Origin: Candidatus Eiseniibacteriota bacterium
GTDB taxonomy: Bacteria > Orphanbacterota > Orphanbacteria > Orphanbacterales > Orphanbacteraceae
Length of the DNA stretch: 64,000 bases
Direction of reading: 5' to 3'
NCBI GenBank assembly: GCA_029262235.1
Contig: JAJCZU010000004.1
Span: 1-64,000 of the forward strand
This document shows, one piece after another, positions 37,950-50,189 of the stretch (the stretch's first letter is position 1; each line of letters begins with the position of its first letter). Under the pieces are notes generated by a model. The model had not been told where the DNA came from and did not search any database. It saw only the letters and a list, made by a program, of their open reading frames with translations. A program made the translations under genes and the position numbers.

Positions 37950-38228
37950 ATGTTGCGTTGGCGCACGAAACTCGGGATCGTGGCCCTCATGCTTGCATTT
38001 CTGCTCGTCACACCGGCGGCTTTTGCCTGGGAAGAGGTCCCTCCAGGACCTGACCCCGGTATGGAAAACTCCGGCGCGCCGGGCGGAGGCGATACGGATC
38101 CTGATGACTTTCCCATCATCTTGAACAATCAGACCAGCGTCCGGGAAGAAGTCACCGCTCCTCCGATCAGCAACAGTTTGAAACTGCTGAGGCTGACGAT
38201 CTATCTGTCGCGCTTTCTGTCCATCTGA
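37950..38228 (+). CDS. Small secreted protein of unknown function
   Basis: 92 residues. MLRWRTKLGIVALMLAFLLVTPAAFA is a clear signal peptide (AFA-WEE cleavage). The mature 66 residues are acidic and Pro/Gly-rich (WEEVPPGPDPGMENSGAPGGG) with a short hydrophobic end (LLRLTIYLSRFLSI). No family recognised. AAAGGAGAAT precedes the start. It lies 48 bases before the large TPR/sigma-54 regulator and is probably in the same transcript. Confidence 0.7.
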   Translation: MLRWRTKLGIVALMLAFLLVTPAAFAWEEVPPGPDPGMENSGAPGGGDTDPDDFPIILNNQTSVREEVTAPPISNSLKLLRLTIYLSRFLSI

Positions 38229-38276: not shown

Positions 38277-41200
38277 ATGACCTACCGAAACCAACCAAGG
38301 TTGGGTCGTAAACTAAAGGAAATCAGCGAGGTTCTGGGTGTCCCCGACCGGACGGCGACTTCTGTCGGCGATCTCGGTTCGCTCTATCTCGGGACGGACC
38401 ATTACCTCGATGCGATCCGTGAATTCGAAGCAGTGCTGCAGAACGAAACCGCGACGACTGCGACGGCCGCGCAGGCTGCGATTCGCGAGAAACTCGCCTG
38501 GTGTCATTACTACACGGGTCATTTCGATCAAGCGGAAGCGACGATGCGTGCGCTGGATGCCTCGGTCGAAAGCCGGCCCGGGCTTCTGCTGCTGCTGGCC
38601 CGGATCGACCTCGAACGTGGCGAGTCGCAGCTGAGCCGCAAAAAAGCCGAAAGATCACTCGCCCTCTCCCGGGAACTGGGGGACGAGGAATGGCTCGGTC
38701 AGACGCATTCACTGCTCGGCGTGATCGCTCACCGAAGCGGGCAGACCGAAGCCGCGCGCGGACATTTTGAAGAAGCACTCCTTTCGTACCGCATTGCGGG
38801 CGACCCCGACGGGGAAGCGCGCTCATTCATTCATCTCGGCACGCTCGCGAAATCGGAATGCCGGTGGGACGAAGCGCTCCGCTATCTGCAGCGGGCCCGC
38901 GCGCGCGCCGACGAAGAAGGCTTCTACTATTTATTCGGATCGGCCTCGCTTAATCTGGGCAACCTTCGCTATCGCCTGGGTGAACTTCCGCAGGCGTTCG
39001 ACGCGACCCGCGAAGCGAAACGCGTCTTCCATGAAATCGGATACCGGCTCGGAGAGGCGCGCGCCCTTCTCGCGGAAGCGCGTGTGCATCTGGACCGCGA
39101 CGATCGCGCCAGTTTCGATCGCTGCGTGAACGAAGGCGAAGCGATCTGCCGCGACGGCGGATTCAAGCGCGAGCTCGCGTTCTGGGAAGTGCTGAAGGGC
39201 GAAGCGGCCCTTCATGTCGGCGACGAAGGAGCAGCGAAGATTCACCTGCAGGAGGGGCTGCAACTTGCGCGCGCGATCTCGCCGAACGGCGACCTTGCCG
39301 TGCGCGCCACACTCCATCTTGCGGGGCTGTGCCTCCGCAGCCGCGACGCAGCCAGCTGCCGCGCCCTTCTCGACTCGATCGCCGACGCGCAGCATGAAGT
39401 CGGCGACCCGGCGCAGGAAGGCTGGATGCATCGTCTGCACGCCGAAGCGTCGCGCCACGAAGAACGGTACGAAGAAGCGAGCGACTACGCGCAGCGCGCC
39501 ATCACCTGTTTCGAACGCATCGGATACCGCCAGGAACTCGCCGAGGCGCTGACCGTCTCCGGGCGCGTGGCCGCATCCGATTCACTCGGTGACGACACCG
39601 AGCGGGTCCTTTCGCACTATCTGCGCGCGAAGCGAATCTGGGACGACCTGGCCTCGCACCGTAACGCGGCGGGCGTATCGCTCGAAATCGCGCGCTTCTG
39701 GCTCGGGAAAGAGGACCTCGACGAAGCCCTGTCGTACGTCCAGAAAGCGCACGCCCTGTTTGCGCGCGCGCAGGACGACGCGGGGCTCTTCACATGCACG
39801 GAACTGCTGCGTCACGTGGAAAGCCGCTTCGCGGACTCGATGTCGGAGGCGCCCGACCCGGCGTTTGCGTCACGCAACGCCACGCGCGGCGACCTCTCCG
39901 AGGGACTCGCGTATCTGCTCGGCGACGCGCTGCGGCGCTCCCGCTCGGCACGCGGCTGGATTGCGTCGGGAACGAACCTGGCCGATCTGAACGTACTCGC
40001 GCATCAGGGACTGCCCGGCGACGAAGCCGAAGCGGCCATCGCGCAACTGCTCGCGGACGACCCGACGTTTCTGGACAGCGACCGCCCGCTCTTCCTGAGC
40101 GGCCTCGACGCGCGCAATCAACTGGCACGCGATCGCAGCGTCGTCGCTCTCCCGTTTGCGATTCACGACGGCGCGCGCGGACTTCTTTACGTCGACCGCC
40201 CGTCCCGGAGCGGATGCGAGAGCTACCGGTTCCGCGACCTGCAGATTCTGTCGTCGGCGACGCACGCGATCGCGAAACGGATCGCGGAGCATCAGAAGAG
40301 TGAATTGCTTCGCGAAAACTTCTACCTGAAAGAGAAGCTCGAGAATCGCTATCCGTTTGCCAATATCGTGACCGAACATCCGAAGATGATCGAGACGCTT
40401 TCGATCGCGTCGCGCATCGCCGACTATCCGATCACGGCGATGCTGGACGGCGAAACCGGTACGGGCAAACAGCTGCTCGCGCGCGCCATTCACGATTCGA
40501 GCGACCGCGCGAAAGAGCCGTTCGTTACGCTCAACTGCGCTTCGCTTCCCGAGCAGATTCTGGAGTCGGAACTGTTCGGCTATGTGAAGGGCGCTTTCAC
40601 GGGCGCTCTGGAAGATCGTAAGGGTCTTTTCGAAGAGGCGAACGGCGGCACGATCTTCCTCGACGAAATCGGAAAGGCGGGCGGCCATGTCCAGCGCGCG
40701 CTGCTGCACGTGCTCGACCAGGGAATCATTCGCCCGGTCGGTTCGAATACGCATCGCGAAGTCGATGTGCGCGTGATCTGCGCCACGTCGAACACGCAGC
40801 TTCTGAAGGACATCGAGGACGGCCTCTTCCTGAAGGATCTCTACTATCGTGTGAACGATATCTGTCTCAGCCTGCCGCCGCTCCGTGAGCGCGCGTCGGA
40901 CATTCCGCTTCTCGCCGACACGTTTCTCGAAGCGTTCCGCCAGAAGATCGGGCGCGAAGAGATGCGTTTCGACGCGGCCGTGTACGCGGCGCTCGAGGCG
41001 TACGACTGGCCCGGCAACGTGCGTGAGCTCGAGAAAGCCGTGCAGCGCGCGACGCTTCTGACTCCGACGCCGATCATTACGGTCGAATCCCTGCCCGCCG
41101 AAGTGCGTGCCGGCGCCGCGGACGCAGCGTCGGCCGGGACCTCGTCGGGGCGGAACGGGAACGCGCAACCGCTGAAGGACGAAGTCGAAGAACTCGAACG

Positions 41201-41318
41201 CCGTCGTGTCGCCGAAGCGCTCCTCGAAACGAACGGCAACCGAAGCGCCGCCGCGCGTCTGCTCGGTCTGTCGATTCGGGGATTACGCAACAAGATCCAG
41301 CGTTACGAGCTGGGTTAG
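38277..41318 (+). CDS. TPR-sensor sigma-54-dependent transcriptional activator
   Basis: 1013 residues. TPR-like helical repeats fill about 30-500, and a GAF-like domain about 545-665. The AAA+ domain (about 693-925) has Walker A GETGTGKQL (near 725), the sigma-54 loop GAFTGA (near 771), Walker B GGTIFLDEI, sensor RVICATSN and the arginine finger region LKDLYYRVND. A Fis-type HTH is at 975-1011 (NRSAAARLLGLSIRGLRNKIQRY). There is no phosphoreceiver, so TPR/GAF regions sense protein or ligand signals. Start ATG after GGGAGAGAG. A sigma-54-like promoter lies 224 bases downstream. Confidence 0.92.
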   Translation: MTYRNQPRLGRKLKEISEVLGVPDRTATSVGDLGSLYLGTDHYLDAIREFEAVLQNETATTATAAQAAIREKLAWCHYYTGHFDQAEATMRALDASVESRPGLLLLLARIDLERGESQLSRKKAERSLALSRELGDEEWLGQTHSLLGVIAHRSGQTEAARGHFEEALLSYRIAGDPDGEARSFIHLGTLAKSECRWDEALRYLQRARARADEEGFYYLFGSASLNLGNLRYRLGELPQAFDATREAKRVFHEIGYRLGEARALLAEARVHLDRDDRASFDRCVNEGEAICRDGGFKRELAFWEVLKGEAALHVGDEGAAKIHLQEGLQLARAISPNGDLAVRATLHLAGLCLRSRDAASCRALLDSIADAQHEVGDPAQEGWMHRLHAEASRHEERYEEASDYAQRAITCFERIGYRQELAEALTVSGRVAASDSLGDDTERVLSHYLRAKRIWDDLASHRNAAGVSLEIARFWLGKEDLDEALSYVQKAHALFARAQDDAGLFTCTELLRHVESRFADSMSEAPDPAFASRNATRGDLSEGLAYLLGDALRRSRSARGWIASGTNLADLNVLAHQGLPGDEAEAAIAQLLADDPTFLDSDRPLFLSGLDARNQLARDRSVVALPFAIHDGARGLLYVDRPSRSGCESYRFRDLQILSSATHAIAKRIAEHQKSELLRENFYLKEKLENRYPFANIVTEHPKMIETLSIASRIADYPITAMLDGETGTGKQLLARAIHDSSDRAKEPFVTLNCASLPEQILESELFGYVKGAFTGALEDRKGLFEEANGGTIFLDEIGKAGGHVQRALLHVLDQGIIRPVGSNTHREVDVRVICATSNTQLLKDIEDGLFLKDLYYRVNDICLSLPPLRERASDIPLLADTFLEAFRQKIGREEMRFDAAVYAALEAYDWPGNVRELEKAVQRATLLTPTPIITVESLPAEVRAGAADAASAGTSSGRNGNAQPLKDEVEELERRRVAEALLETNGNRSAAARLLGLSIRGLRNKIQRYELG

Positions 41319-41331
41319 CCCCGGCACCTGC

Positions 41332-41354
41332 TGCACACCCTGCGTAATCGTGCA
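41332..41354 (+). promoter_or_regulatory. Possible enhancer-type inverted repeat
   Basis: TGCAC-N13-GTGCA lies 188 bases upstream of the sigma-54-like promoter, a normal distance for binding of an activator such as the gene just upstream. Tentative, as no footprint-like array is seen. Confidence 0.25.
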
Positions 41355-41541
41355 CGAAGTTCCTCCTCGCATAACCTCATGATTAAAATGCCTTTGCGCT
41401 GAATTCTGCCGGATTTCGAGTACCTGGTTCCCGGTGGAATCCCGCTCGTTTCCTCGTCCTGACCCCGCCCGCTTCATGCCCGAACACCGTAACTCGCTGT
41501 AAACCAAGACCTTTCCAATCTTTTTGCACATTTCGATAAGA

Positions 41542-41557
41542 TGGCACGTCCCTTGAT
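41542..41557 (+). promoter_or_regulatory. Sigma-54-like promoter
   Basis: TGGCACGTCCCTTGAT matches the -24/-12 consensus TGGCACG-N4-TTGCW at all positions but one; the invariant-looking C of the -12 GC is A. The spacing GG-N10-GA is correct. Transcription would start near 41568. The nearest regulator is a sigma-54 activator ending at 41318. Confidence 0.5.
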
Positions 41558-41567
41558 ATGTACAGGG

Positions 41568-41899
41568 GTGAATCGTTCGGAAATTAGGGGCCGGACGGTT
41601 CAATCGGCCTCAGCCACCTCCTGCCCTCCTCAATTCGTAGGTGGTGGCCCGAGGGTTTTGATTCCTGGTGGGTTGAACCCGCGGGCCGATCGATGTGCGG
41701 GTCTCGTTATGGAGACCGGGTGTACTTTATTCAGGCGATCGTTTCGGCGATTGTGGCGAGAGTCACTTCCGTGTCGTGGTCGAAAAGGGGAGCTAGGGCG
41801 CGGGACAGCTTGAATAAGGGTTGGGGTGCAAAACACCGGTAGCCGTGAGGCCCGCCGCATTCTGGAACGGGGTAGTCGCTTGACGGCTACCCCGTTTTT
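41568..41899 (+). ncRNA. Candidate structured leader or small RNA with terminator/antiterminator pairing
   Basis: About 330 bases without a convincing gene. Stems seen: GCCACCT/AGGTGGT (41613-41619 with 41639-41645), GGTCTC/GAGACC (41700-41705 with 41712-41717), GGTG/CACC (41825-41828 with 41834-41837). At the end, CGGGGTAG/CTACCCCG (41868-41875 with 41887-41894) and five T form a terminator. GGTAGCCGT (41838-41846) pairs perfectly with ACGGCTACC (41883-41891), which shares CTACC with the terminator, so the two folds exclude each other. This is the architecture of an attenuator. It precedes the GT-C/TPR gene by 80 bases. Confidence 0.6.
41868..41899 (+). terminator. Intrinsic terminator of the structured leader
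   Basis: Perfect 8-bp stem CGGGGTAG/CTACCCCG with an 11-base loop followed by TTTTT. It lies 82 bases upstream of the glycosyltransferase start, so readthrough would be needed to express that gene from the upstream promoter. Confidence 0.85.
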
Positions 41900-41980
41900 G
41901 CCGTTGTGGAAGGCAGCCCCGGCGGGGATGCGCCCCCAATCTTCCGTGCGCCGCTCCGCCCGTTCGTTTACTCTGCGTGC

Positions 41981-44062
41981 ATGGCTTCCAGGACTCAATG
42001 GCTCCGTGTGAACCGGGCACGCATTCTGCTCGGTCTTCTGATTCTGCTTGCTCTGTTCGCGCGCGGCAACTACCTCGGCGAGCTCAAGACCAACCCCTTC
42101 TACGGCTACCCCATCATCGACGCGGCCGAGTACCTCGGCTGGGGGACGGCGATCGCGCACGGCGATTTCCCGTGGACGCGCGTTCATATCCACGGTCCTC
42201 TCTATCCGCACCTGCTCGCCGTCCTTTTCAAGATGGGTGGTTCGCCGGACTGGATTTATCCATTGCAGTTCGCGCTGGGGATTCTGGTAATCCTGCTGGT
42301 GTTTTATCTGGGGAAGCGGAGCGAAGGTCGTGTTCCCGGCATCTTCGCGGCGGGGATGCTCGTCTTCTACGCGCGCGAGCTTTTCTTCGAAGGGCTTGTT
42401 TTCGCGACGACTCTCGCTACTTTTCTTACGCTCGCCTTCGTGCTGCTCGGCGTCGTGTTCTCGTTCGGGGATCAAAAGCGGCGCGCGCGGGTCTGGGCGC
42501 TCACGGGGATCGCTCTCGGCCTCTCTGCGATTACGCGCCCCACGATTCTGATCGCGGTGCCGTTCGTGCTCGGTTTCTTCCTGTGGCGCTTCGACCGCAG
42601 GCAGGCGCTCGCGGTGGCCGCCTGGTTCGTGCTCGGCGCCGCGCTCGTGATCGGGCCTGTTACGCTTCGCAATATCGCGATCGGTGACCCTGTGCTCGTG
42701 CAGGGGAACGGCGGGATGAACTTCTATCTCGGGAATCGCGCGGGCGCCGACGGCCTGGCTTCGGTTCGCCCGGGTGTGCAATGGAACGACCTCGAGCGCA
42801 TCGGGAACGAAGCGGGCATGATCCGCGCGGCCGACCGGGATCGTTTCTACTACGCGCGCGCCTGGAGCGAAATCGCCGCGCATCCGGGAGAAGCGATTGC
42901 GCGCGCGCTGAAACGCGTGCTCTATTTCTGGAGCGGCGCCGAAGTCGACACGAGCCAGAGCTTTCCGTACTTTCGCAACAACAGCGAAACGTTGCGCCTG
43001 CTCTTTCTCCCCGTCGGCTGGATCACGGCGATCGGGCTGATCGGCTGGCTGCGCTACGGTTTCGGTCGCCATCGTCCGCTCACGTTTGCCGGCGTCGTTC
43101 TGCTCGCGTACACGTTCTCGGCGCTGCTGTTTCCGTTCGCGTCACGCTATCGCATGCCGATGGTGCCGATCATGGCGCTCTTCGCCGCCGCGGAACTGTA
43201 CGGCATCGGGAAACGGTGGCGCAAGCCCGACGGCCTCGTGCGCATGGGCGTTGTGCTCGTTTCTCTTGTCGTTTTGAACCTTCCCGCGACGGCTCCGCAG
43301 CGCGATCTCGTGCGCGTCGAACTTCATTTAGGGAAGAAATATTACGATGCGAAGCGGTATGCGTCCTCGGAGCTCTACTATAAGGAGGCGCTTGCGAAGT
43401 ACGGCGAGGACCCCGATCTGCTGAACAATTTCGGCCTCCTTCGGGAGGCCATGGGGAATGCGGACGAAGCGGAGCAGTGGTACCGGCGCGCGGCGGCCGC
43501 CGGGCCGACGCATGCCAAGGCGCTCGCGAACCTCGCCGGCATGCACATGCGGCGCGGCGACATCGAGGGGACGCTCCGCGAACTGGGCCGCGCGCTCGCA
43601 CTCGAGCCGCGCAATCCCGACTTCCGGAACAATCACGGCGCGCTTCTATTACAGATGGGACGGACGAATGAAGCGATCGCGACGCTCGAAAGGGGGCGCG
43701 CGGTCGACCCCGCGCATGCGGATCTGCTGATCAATCTGTCGCGTGCGTATGAAGCGGCCGGGCGATATGAAGACGCGAAAGAGGCGATGGCGATTTCCGC
43801 GTCGGTCGAACCGCGGCCCGCGGCGTTTCACATGCTGGGCCGGCTCGAGGAGCGGACCGGCGATCCTGCGGCCGCGCTCCAGTCGTATGATCGCGCCCTC
43901 GCGGGCGGCGCGTATCCCCCGGCGCTCCGGTCGCGCGGAATCCTGCTCGTCCGAGCCGGGCGCTCGCCCGAAGGGATCCGGGACTTGCGCGCGTATGTCG
44001 CGGGCAATCCGGACGACACGCAGGCCGCACTCTTTCTCAGACAGGCCGAAGGGTCGCCTTGA
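41981..44062 (+). CDS. Membrane glycosyltransferase (GT-C/PMT-like) fused to TPR repeats
   Basis: 693 residues. Residues 1-430 have about ten membrane segments with the early acidic site IDAAEYLGWGTAI and HGPLYPHLLAVLFKM loop of ArnT/PMT-like glycosyltransferases that use polyprenyl-phosphate sugars. Residues 445-690 are at least six TPR units (YYKEALAKYGEDPDLLNNFGLLREAMGNADEAEQWYRRA...). The fusion suggests a protein-glycosylation or surface glycan enzyme held in a complex. ATG at 41981 is chosen; the frame is open upstream to a GTG at 41906. No ribosome site is clear at either. A paralogue lies at 45689-47827. Confidence 0.8.
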   Translation: MASRTQWLRVNRARILLGLLILLALFARGNYLGELKTNPFYGYPIIDAAEYLGWGTAIAHGDFPWTRVHIHGPLYPHLLAVLFKMGGSPDWIYPLQFALGILVILLVFYLGKRSEGRVPGIFAAGMLVFYARELFFEGLVFATTLATFLTLAFVLLGVVFSFGDQKRRARVWALTGIALGLSAITRPTILIAVPFVLGFFLWRFDRRQALAVAAWFVLGAALVIGPVTLRNIAIGDPVLVQGNGGMNFYLGNRAGADGLASVRPGVQWNDLERIGNEAGMIRAADRDRFYYARAWSEIAAHPGEAIARALKRVLYFWSGAEVDTSQSFPYFRNNSETLRLLFLPVGWITAIGLIGWLRYGFGRHRPLTFAGVVLLAYTFSALLFPFASRYRMPMVPIMALFAAAELYGIGKRWRKPDGLVRMGVVLVSLVVLNLPATAPQRDLVRVELHLGKKYYDAKRYASSELYYKEALAKYGEDPDLLNNFGLLREAMGNADEAEQWYRRAAAAGPTHAKALANLAGMHMRRGDIEGTLRELGRALALEPRNPDFRNNHGALLLQMGRTNEAIATLERGRAVDPAHADLLINLSRAYEAAGRYEDAKEAMAISASVEPRPAAFHMLGRLEERTGDPAAALQSYDRALAGGAYPPALRSRGILLVRAGRSPEGIRDLRAYVAGNPDDTQAALFLRQAEGSP

Positions 44063-48286: not shown

Positions 48287-48362
48287 GCTGGCGTAGCTCA
48301 ATTGGTAGAGCGCCTCACTTGTAATGAGGTGGTTGGGGGTTCAAGTCCTCTCGCCAGCTCCA
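48287..48362 (+). tRNA. tRNA-Thr(TGT)
   Basis: Acceptor GCTGGCG/CGCCAGC, anticodon loop CTTGTAA with anticodon TGT, T-loop GGTTCAAGTCC and encoded CCA. First of four tRNAs in the order Thr-Tyr-Gly-Thr preceding tuf, as in E. coli thrU-tyrU-glyT-thrT-tufB. Confidence 0.97.
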
Positions 48363-48402
48363 TTCGTGGAGCCGGCGTGGAGCCGTCCTCGACTCCGTTA
48401 GC

Positions 48403-48484
48403 GGGGAGGTTCCCGAGTGGCCAAAGGGGGCAGACTGTAAATCTGTTGGCGAAGCCTTCGAAGGTTCGAATCCTTCCCTCCCCA
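48403..48484 (+). tRNA. tRNA-Tyr(GTA)
   Basis: Acceptor GGGGAGG/CCTCCCC, anticodon loop CTGTAAA (GTA), long variable arm (class II) and T-loop GGTTCGAATCC. No CCA is encoded. Confidence 0.95.
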
Positions 48485-48579
48485 TACCGTTTCGATGAGT
48501 CGCCCCTTCCCTGTGGGAAGGTCAACTATATATAGATAGCATTTTGTCAGTCGAGCCCTCGATCGGCTGCATTTAATAA

Positions 48580-48656
48580 GCGGGAATAGCTCAGTTGGCT
48601 AGAGCATCAGCCTTCCAAGCTGAGGGTCGCGGGTTCGAGTCCCGTTTCCCGCTCCA
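48580..48656 (+). tRNA. tRNA-Gly(TCC)
   Basis: Acceptor GCGGGAA/TTCCCGC, anticodon loop CTTCCAA (TCC), T-loop GGTTCGAGTCC and encoded CCA. Confidence 0.97.
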
Positions 48657-48709
48657 TAGTTTCATCGAGGGATATCATTCATAGGCGTTTCGACGGATCC
48701 GCAAGAGAT

Positions 48710-48785
48710 GCCCACGTAGCTCAGCTGGTAGAGCATTTGCATGGTAAGCAAAAGGTCATCAGTTCAAATCTGATCGTGGGCTCCA
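48710..48785 (+). tRNA. tRNA-Thr(GGT)
   Basis: Acceptor GCCCACG/CGTGGGC, anticodon stem TTTGC/GCAAA with loop ATGGTAA (GGT), T-loop AGTTCAAATCT and encoded CCA. It lies 61 bases before tuf. Confidence 0.96.
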
Positions 48786-48846
48786 TTCCAGGGTATCCGT
48801 CCGATTGATTGCCAGTTGCCTTAAAGGCAGGAGGAACGAGAGAGAA

Positions 48847-50052
48847 ATGGCAAAGGAGAAGTTCGTACGAACAAAACCTCACGTCAACGTAGGAACGATT
48901 GGTCACGTTGACCATGGAAAGACTACGCTCACGTCCGCTATCACTGCCGTGCAGGGAGCGAAGGGTTTGGCAACCGTAATTTCATACGACGAAGTGGCCA
49001 AGGCGTCCGAAAGCCAGGGTCGCCGCGATGCGACGAAGATCATGACGATCGCCACGTCGCACGTCGAGTATGAAAGTGACAACCGCCATTACGCCCACGT
49101 GGACTGCCCGGGACATGCGGATTACGTGAAGAACATGGTTACCGGAGCGGCTCAGATGGACGGCGCGATTCTCGTGGTGTCCGCTGCAGACGGTCCGATG
49201 CCTCAGACCCGTGAGCATGTGCTCCTGGCTCGCCAGGTGAACGTGCCTTACATCGTGGTCTTCCTCAATAAAGTCGACACCGTCGACGACCCCGAGCTGC
49301 TCGATCTCGTCGAACTCGAAGTTCGCGAGCTCCTCAGCGCCTACGACTTCCCGGGCGATGACGCGCCGGTGATTCGTGGTTCGGCCCTTGGCGCCATGAA
49401 CAATCCGACGGATCCTGAAGCCACCAAGTGCATTCAGGAACTGATGGAAGCGATCGACACGGCGATTGAAGAGCCGGAGCGCGAAGTGGACAAGCCCTTC
49501 CTCCTCGCGGTGGAAGACGTCTTCTCGATCACCGGTCGTGGCACGGTTGCCACGGGTCGTGTGGAGCGCGGCAAAGTCAAAGTCGGCGACAAAGTCCAGC
49601 GAGTCGGTATTCGCGAGCCCATGGAGACGGTCGTTACGGGCGTCGAAATGTTCCGCAAGGAGATGGGCGAGGCACAGGCCGGTGACAACATCGGACTCCT
49701 GCTTCGCGGCGTCGGCAAAGACGATATCGAACGCGGCATGGTGCTGATCAAGCCGGGCTCAGTGAATCCGCATACGAAGTTCCGCGGAGAGGTTTATATC
49801 CTTACGAAAGAAGAAGGGGGTCGTCATACGCCGTTCTTCACGGGATACCGTCCGCAGTTCTTCTTCCGCACGACCGACGTGACGGGCACCCTGACGCTTC
49901 CGGAAGGTCGCGAAATGGTGATGCCCGGCGACAACGTTGAAATGTCTGTGGAACTCCACACTCCGATCGCCATGGAGCAGTCGCTCCGGTTCGCGATTCG
50001 TGAAGGTGGTCGCACCGTCGGTGCAGGCGTGATCGCTGAGATCCTCGACTAA
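48847..50052 (+). CDS. tuf: Elongation factor Tu with non-canonical switch I
   Basis: 401 residues. G1 [17 protein letters not shown] and the domain II/III sequence are normal, and it should bring aminoacyl-tRNA to the ribosome. Switch I is unusual: E. coli DNAPEEKARGITINTSHVE is replaced by [22 protein letters not shown] (residues 53-74), so R58 and G59 of the E. coli protein are K and I; the Mg-binding Thr (T67) remains. The start at 48847 follows GGCAGGAGGAAC. Co-transcribed with the preceding tRNAs. A second tuf may follow fusA outside the window. Confidence 0.97.
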
Positions 50053-50071
50053 GGACCTCGTAAGATAAATA

Positions 50072-50095
50072 GGGCGCGTCCTTCGGGGCGCGCCC
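50072..50095 (+). terminator. GC hairpin downstream of tuf
   Basis: GGGCGCGTCC-TTCG-GGGCGCGCCC forms a stable hairpin 20 bases after the tuf stop, but only single T residues follow. It is a weak or processing hairpin, as tRNA-Trp starts 21 bases later. Confidence 0.45.
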
Positions 50096-50115
50096 GTTAC
50101 AACGTTTGTGAACGA

Positions 50116-50189
50116 AGGCCTGTAGCTCAATTAGGTAGAGCACCGGTCTCCAAAACCGGGGGTTGCAGGTTCGATTCCTGCCGGGCCTG
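50116..50189 (+). tRNA. tRNA-Trp(CCA)
   Basis: Acceptor AGGCCTG/CGGGCCT (one G-U), anticodon loop CTCCAAA (CCA), T-loop GGTTCGATTCC, discriminator G and no encoded CCA. It sits between tuf and secE, as in E. coli. Confidence 0.96.

Follow-up and report, generated by a model that had tools for sequence, protein, structure and literature searches.

A conserved structured RNA beside a TPR-type sigma-54 activator in Candidatus Eiseniibacteriota, probably a sigma-54-dependent small RNA

In the RtcR-controlled RNA-repair operon, a sigma-54 activator is encoded next to its target and the structured yrlA RNA belongs to the regulated unit. In Pseudomonas, the small RNA CrcZ forms a separate sigma-54-dependent unit downstream of cbrB, the gene of an NtrC-type activator, and this synteny is kept in one family (PMC8871633); in Vibrio, the gene of the sigma-54-dependent small RNA Qrr1 adjoins the activator gene luxO within a signalling circuit (PMC8043402). 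The RRNPP pairs of Firmicutes place a small exported propeptide gene adjacent to the gene of an intracellular TPR regulator (PMC10075063). Here we describe a locus of Candidatus Eiseniibacteriota whose layout is the same in kind as those of CrcZ and Qrr1 but which differs from them in sequence, fold, partner protein and input domains. It lies in what we call the window, i.e., the whole stretch of 64,000 nt that was analysed (GCA_029262235.1, contig JAJCZU010000004.1, positions 1-64,000 of the forward strand), to which the coordinates below refer. Like CrcZ, the RNA found here appears as a separate sigma-54 unit beside an activator gene in conserved synteny; unlike CrcZ, it has no Rfam match, adopts a compact multi-domain fold and has no Hfq at its side, while the input of its activator is TPR/GAF and not a receiver domain. 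It stands next to the activator gene as Qrr1 does, yet the two share no sequence match, and the RNA here is about 300 nt long and single copy, with Hfq absent. Set against the RtcR-controlled operon (PMC7790460), the neighbours scanned here with Pfam include no RtcB, RtcA or Rsr, and the activator has a TPR/GAF-like input and no CARF. The likeness to RRNPP pairs is one of logic only: an exported peptide gene directly adjoins a TPR regulator here as well, but the regulator is a sigma-54 AAA+ activator, the phylum is not Firmicutes, and peptide processing and binding are putative.

The predicted transcript spans 41568..41899 (+), about 332 nt with its terminator, if it starts 12 nt past the -12 element of the promoter described below. 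A first-pass annotation of the window had pointed to a structured stretch at this place, and folding bears this out: the 41566-41905 strand reaches -165.6 kcal/mol, whereas dinucleotide shuffles come to -134.6 +/- 4.6 (z = -6.7), none of 100 being equally stable. Our comparison set consisted of seven genomes of this small phylum, the window's own and six others (G001-G006), and six of the seven carry a homologue. Four homologues are clear (window, G001, G002 and G005), those of G001 (a sister, 94% identical), G002 and G005 having been found by DNA search. The two diverged ones, in G004 and G006, were added by reading the syntenic locus, and what identifies them is synteny, the P1 hairpin and a GGGGAGC loop; outside this hairpin and loop they align poorly, and they score weakly with the model (18 bits). 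Covariance models were built for two domains of the RNA, and the first model returned a single copy per genome in four genomes and no significant match in G003, G004 or G006. No Rfam family scored above its gathering cut-off, the two sub-threshold listings being far under theirs, and none of Rfam's riboswitch families matched. When 84,980 GTDB species genomes were scanned with a sequence pattern, 12 loci turned up; the three known relatives alone among them scored with the models, the others being chance, and no true member emerged outside this group, although so strict a pattern could miss diverged homologues elsewhere. Viral contigs held no homologue of the RNA, and 24 nt of G017 that match the sequence ahead of the promoter were set aside as probable chance. 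Between the window and G001, identity amounts to 95% in domain B, 89% in domain A, 94% in the terminator and 88% in the promoter region, and outside the RNA to 67% in the upstream intergenic region, 56% downstream and 69% at four-fold degenerate sites of the activator gene. These values point to purifying selection on the RNA, which we count in favour of the preferred reading given below. On comparative sequence evidence, 41568-41899 is a conserved, structured and previously undescribed non-coding RNA.

Its fold opens with the hairpin P1 (41571..41600, +), whose loop is AAATTAGGGG in the window; the relatives share GGAAUAGGGGCC, with a conserved core GG-AAUAGGGG-CC. The P1 stem covaries in six genomes, where 98.1% of cells pair and 7 cells are double-changed, with none of 500 shuffles as high. 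Domain A (41603..41690, +) is closed by AUCGGC/GCCGAU (41603-41608 with 41685-41690) and contains the hairpin P3 (41613..41648, +), whose CCUCCUC loop is invariant in four genomes amid varying surroundings and is missing from G004 and G006. Domain B (41694..41857, +) is closed by 41694-41705 with 41847-41857 (GCGGGUC/GRCCCGC) and comprises a long covarying helix (41725-41735 with 41809-41819, +) and a hairpin with the conserved loop AANAAGGGGAGC (41767-41805, +). The first-pass annotation had suggested a covariance comparison across relatives, and in this comparison the stems proved to be conserved with compensatory changes: in domain A together with P1, 10 of 38 pairs are changed on both sides and 94.7% of cells pair; in domain B the figures are 9 of 51 and 96.1%, which makes 19 double-changed pairs out of 89 in all among just four sequences. 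When the partners are slid by one column, pairing drops to 30-51%, an advantage that is expected in part, since these sequences also served to derive the structure, and with which the shuffle control agrees. These compensatory base changes lend support to the two domains. In addition, CUCCUC at 41626-41631, in the loop of domain A, can pair with GGGGAG at 41787-41792, in the domain B hairpin, through six pairs including one G-U; an internal kissing contact is possible, on which covariation is silent, both sides being invariant in the four clear homologues.

Upstream of the RNA stands a motif match to a sigma-54 (-24/-12) promoter, TGGCACGTCCCTTGAT (41542..41557, +). The statement that it deviates at one base is correct, and no other place on either strand of the 64 kb fits TGGCACG-N4-TTGC with one mismatch or fewer, 16 others in the window having two each. 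Each of the six genomes that carry the RNA has a -24/-12 element before it: TGGCACGTCCCTTGAT in the window and G001, GGGCACGTCTCTTGCA in G002, TGGCACTCTCTATGCG in G005 and GGGCCCGCCATTTGCT in G004 and G006. The -12 dinucleotide is GA in the window genus (window and G001) and GC in G002, G004, G005 and G006, so that GG and GC 10 bp apart are strictly found in the relatives only; GA at this crucial position may weaken the promoter in the window genus. Two palindromes resembling GGAACnnnGTTCC lie further upstream (no strand assigned), TGCACGAAGTTCC at 41351..41363 and AGTACCTGGTTCC at 41419..41431, i.e., 191 and 123 bp before the -24 element, with two mismatches each. Such a pair is present before the -24 element in the six genomes, at -191/-123, -192/-124, -190/-121, -194/-125, -192/-123 and -192/-123; the sites are perfect or near-perfect in G004-G006, and their left half is degenerate in the window genus. 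Within 488 kb, including some duplicate loci, pairs spaced 67-70 bp apart in which neither site has more than two mismatches occur at this promoter only, the pair of G001 just missing that cut-off through one 3-mismatch site. A whole-genome search for a 69-bp pair with at most three mismatches, limits that the pairs of the window, G001 and G002 exceed, returned one pair in G004 and one in G005, both at the RNA promoter, and three in G006, one of which is the RNA promoter. Because a pair at such spacing was found nowhere else in the 488 kb, we take the two sites to be the enhancer of the TPR-GAF-AAA+ activator encoded next door; no other evidence speaks as strongly for the RNA being the target of this neighbour, which would bind the pair directly. 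In G002, enhancer pair and promoter remain with the RNA despite a sensor kinase gene between activator and RNA. This gene (L008:6284-10180, minus), located between the activator and the RNA promoter, encodes a 1298-aa hybrid sensor kinase (Reg_prop, PAS, HATPase, receiver).

The activator gene (38277..41318, +) encodes a TPR superhelix, a GAF-like domain, a sigma-54 AAA+ domain with an intact GAFTGA and a Fis-type HTH. Its earlier description as a TPR/GAF sigma-54 activator holds by Pfam for the TPR, sigma-54 AAA+ and Fis-HTH parts, while the GAF part has no Pfam GAF hit and comes from the predicted model. In that model (mean pLDDT 82), the TPR superhelix covers ~32-521 and a GAF-like alpha/beta domain ~540-645, with a long linker helix, and the AAA+ domain matches NtrC1, FleQ, LuxO and other sigma-54 activator structures. 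Sigma-54 is encoded in all seven genomes, and a bEBP with GAFTGA and upstream enhancer sites, as expected of a sigma-54-dependent unit, are present beside it. The gene before the activator, likewise noted earlier as small and secreted, encodes an exported protein of 92 aa (37950..38228, +) with a signal peptide, a PGP...DTDPDDFP motif, a hydrophobic/basic C-terminal tail and no Pfam family. The motif and a mostly hydrophobic tail are kept in all five readable orthologous loci, and the protein may serve the activator as signal or partner. Peptide gene, activator and RNA co-occur, and G003, which keeps the GT-C gene found downstream of the RNA, is without all three at the locus. With promoter and paired sites conserved before the RNA in six genomes, the activator appears to exist mainly to switch it on.

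Small exported proteins are also encoded upstream of paralogous TPR-sigma-54 activators (L060, L061, L062, L064, L065, L066, L067, L069 and L032). These proteins combine an acidic motif of Gly, Asp and Pro (GGGDPDNPVPV, DVDPDGLEGL or SGDGDIPE) with a C-terminus that is short and hydrophobic; at L063 and L068, no clear exported-peptide candidate was found. Most of the paralogues examined look like a family of peptide-activator pairs, and the fact that most of these activators follow small exported peptides suggests a pheromone-like control. The downstream regions read behind paralogous activators contain no similar RNA and hold ordinary genes, named by eye from their translations (methyltransferase, archease-like, ETF-type dehydrogenase, Cys-rich small protein, two-component system). 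In one paralogue group, a sigma-54-like promoter is located 510-735 nt behind the activator and before a two-component system (L062:8086, L067:7418, L065 reverse 7814), with a GTACCATTTnGTAC-like palindrome upstream of it in L062 and L067. We found nothing in the open-access literature on Eisenbacteria sigma-54 systems or on peptide-paired sigma-54 activators of the TPR type.

The first-pass annotation had offered two options for the RNA, a regulated attenuator or a sigma-54-dependent small RNA, of which the second fits better. The RNA is probably a stand-alone, structured small RNA of ~300-330 nt that depends on sigma-54 and serves the activator next to it as dedicated output, and we prefer this reading to that of a 5' leader of the GT-C/TPR gene, in which sigma-54 would supply the transcript and a ligand, a protein or an RNA would control the terminator (attenuator or riboswitch). 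Such a leader, though the chief competing explanation, seems unlikely to us. The gene that had been said to follow, for a PMT_2 (GT-C type) membrane protein with C-terminal TPRs, is indeed there (41981..44062, +; PMT_2 and TPR by Pfam), although it does not belong to the module in every genome. The RNA stands shortly before a same-strand gene in every genome, and in five of them this is the GT-C gene; in G005, however, a gene with an FGE-sulfatase domain (L009:4557-5492, minus) lies between the RNA and the GT-C gene, and G003 has the GT-C gene but neither RNA nor activator. The strong terminator reported at the end of the stretch is present as an intrinsic hairpin with U tract (41867..41899, +; -21.5 kcal/mol, TTTTT tail), which in the window genus follows immediately on the conserved fold and is fully paired in G001 too. 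Terminators are uneven elsewhere: the hairpin of G005 has a poor U tract, G002 shows a U tract only, after the closing helix of domain B, and G004 and G006 have no clear terminator. As for the proposed 9-base antiterminator, the exact complement exists, GGTAGCCGT (41838..41846, +) with ACGGCTACC (41883-41891), and a complement of this length arises in 1.7% of shuffles, but the competing fold is not borne out. G001 has ACGACTGCC in place of ACGGCTACC, two 3'-arm changes through which the antiterminator loses pairs (duplex of -8.3 kcal/mol vs -15.6 in the window) and the terminator stays fully paired; enforcing the antiterminator in the window costs ~13 kcal/mol; and GGTAGCCGT belongs, in the conserved fold, to the covarying inner helix of domain B. 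For these three reasons the attenuator switch as drawn, and with it a conserved antiterminator, was dropped. Inspection of G002 and G005 by eye revealed no equivalent, and mutually exclusive pairings are not conserved in the relatives. The spacer after the terminator also argues against a leader, being fast-evolving (56% to G001) except for 20 bp before the GT-C start. These 20 bp (41961..41980, +; 19/20 identical in G001), just before the start codon, are possibly the own promoter or start signal of the GT-C gene, in which TTTACT could be a -10 box, the promoter being a weak sequence match. Further along, the window holds five tRNA genes on the + strand (48287-50189), four of them clustered at 48287-48782.

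That the element is instead a small protein-coding or decayed gene is hardly credible and was ruled out. Open frames of up to 90 aa can be read in the window, but indels of 1, 1, 1, 2 and 1 nt between the 94%-identical sisters break the frame, from which we conclude that the RNA is not translated; the frames are not conserved in G002 or G005, and base pairs covary. The first-pass annotation, which had seen no credible gene here, was right on this point, and the coding pattern with codon conservation that it had named as contrary evidence was not found. For the preferred stand-alone RNA, two modes of action can be put forward, neither of them likely. One would be the sequestration of an RNA-binding regulator by repeated loops, as in CrcZ (Hfq/Crc) or RsmY/Z (RsmA/CsrA), a doubtful proposal to which the motif AAUA(A)GGGG common to two loops and the CrcZ-like layout beside a sigma-54 activator lend some appeal; yet Hfq is absent from all seven genomes (control genomes were positive), and G004 (100% complete) and G006, both of which keep the RNA, lack CsrA. 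A sponge for CsrA or Hfq is accordingly improbable, and another protein is possible. The other, somewhat less plausible still, would have the anti-Shine-Dalgarno-like CCUCCUC loop base-pair with ribosome-binding sites; its invariance in four genomes speaks for this, whereas its loss in G004 and G006, and the ability of the same letters to pair with GGGGAG of domain B, speak against it.

Taking the RNA as a stand-alone small RNA, we propose the following course of events. The TPR/GAF part of the activator would sense a signal, plausibly the exported protein or a peptide cut from it, and the activator would bind the two GGAACnnnGTTCC palindromes, conserved sites ~123 and ~191 bp upstream. It would then remodel the sigma-54 polymerase at 41542-41557, with transcription presumably starting near 41568, directly before P1, and in the window genus probably ending at the 41899 terminator, where the hairpin is present. 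The RNA would fold into the 5' hairpin and the two closed domains, a fold supported by covariation, and would present the loops AAUAGGGG, CCUCCUC and AANAAGGGGAGC, through which it may act in trans on a protein or on mRNAs, without Hfq.

This work adds a structured RNA class without Rfam match, together with its promoter, paired enhancer and dedicated activator, all from sequence alone, so that induction becomes directly testable. In this deep, uncultivated phylum, regulatory RNAs seem to have received little attention, and an Hfq-free small RNA system with a layout like that of CrcZ or Qrr1 raises the question of which protein or target is used. One may speculate, with due reserve, about a peptide circuit outside Firmicutes, in which a propeptide would be sensed by the TPR part of a sigma-54 activator, the main paired-enhancer target would be a large structured RNA of a new class that carries the response, and the paralogous pairs of the same genomes would make up a repertoire. 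That peptide and activator genes are linked in pairs suggests signalling by peptides through sigma-54 activators.
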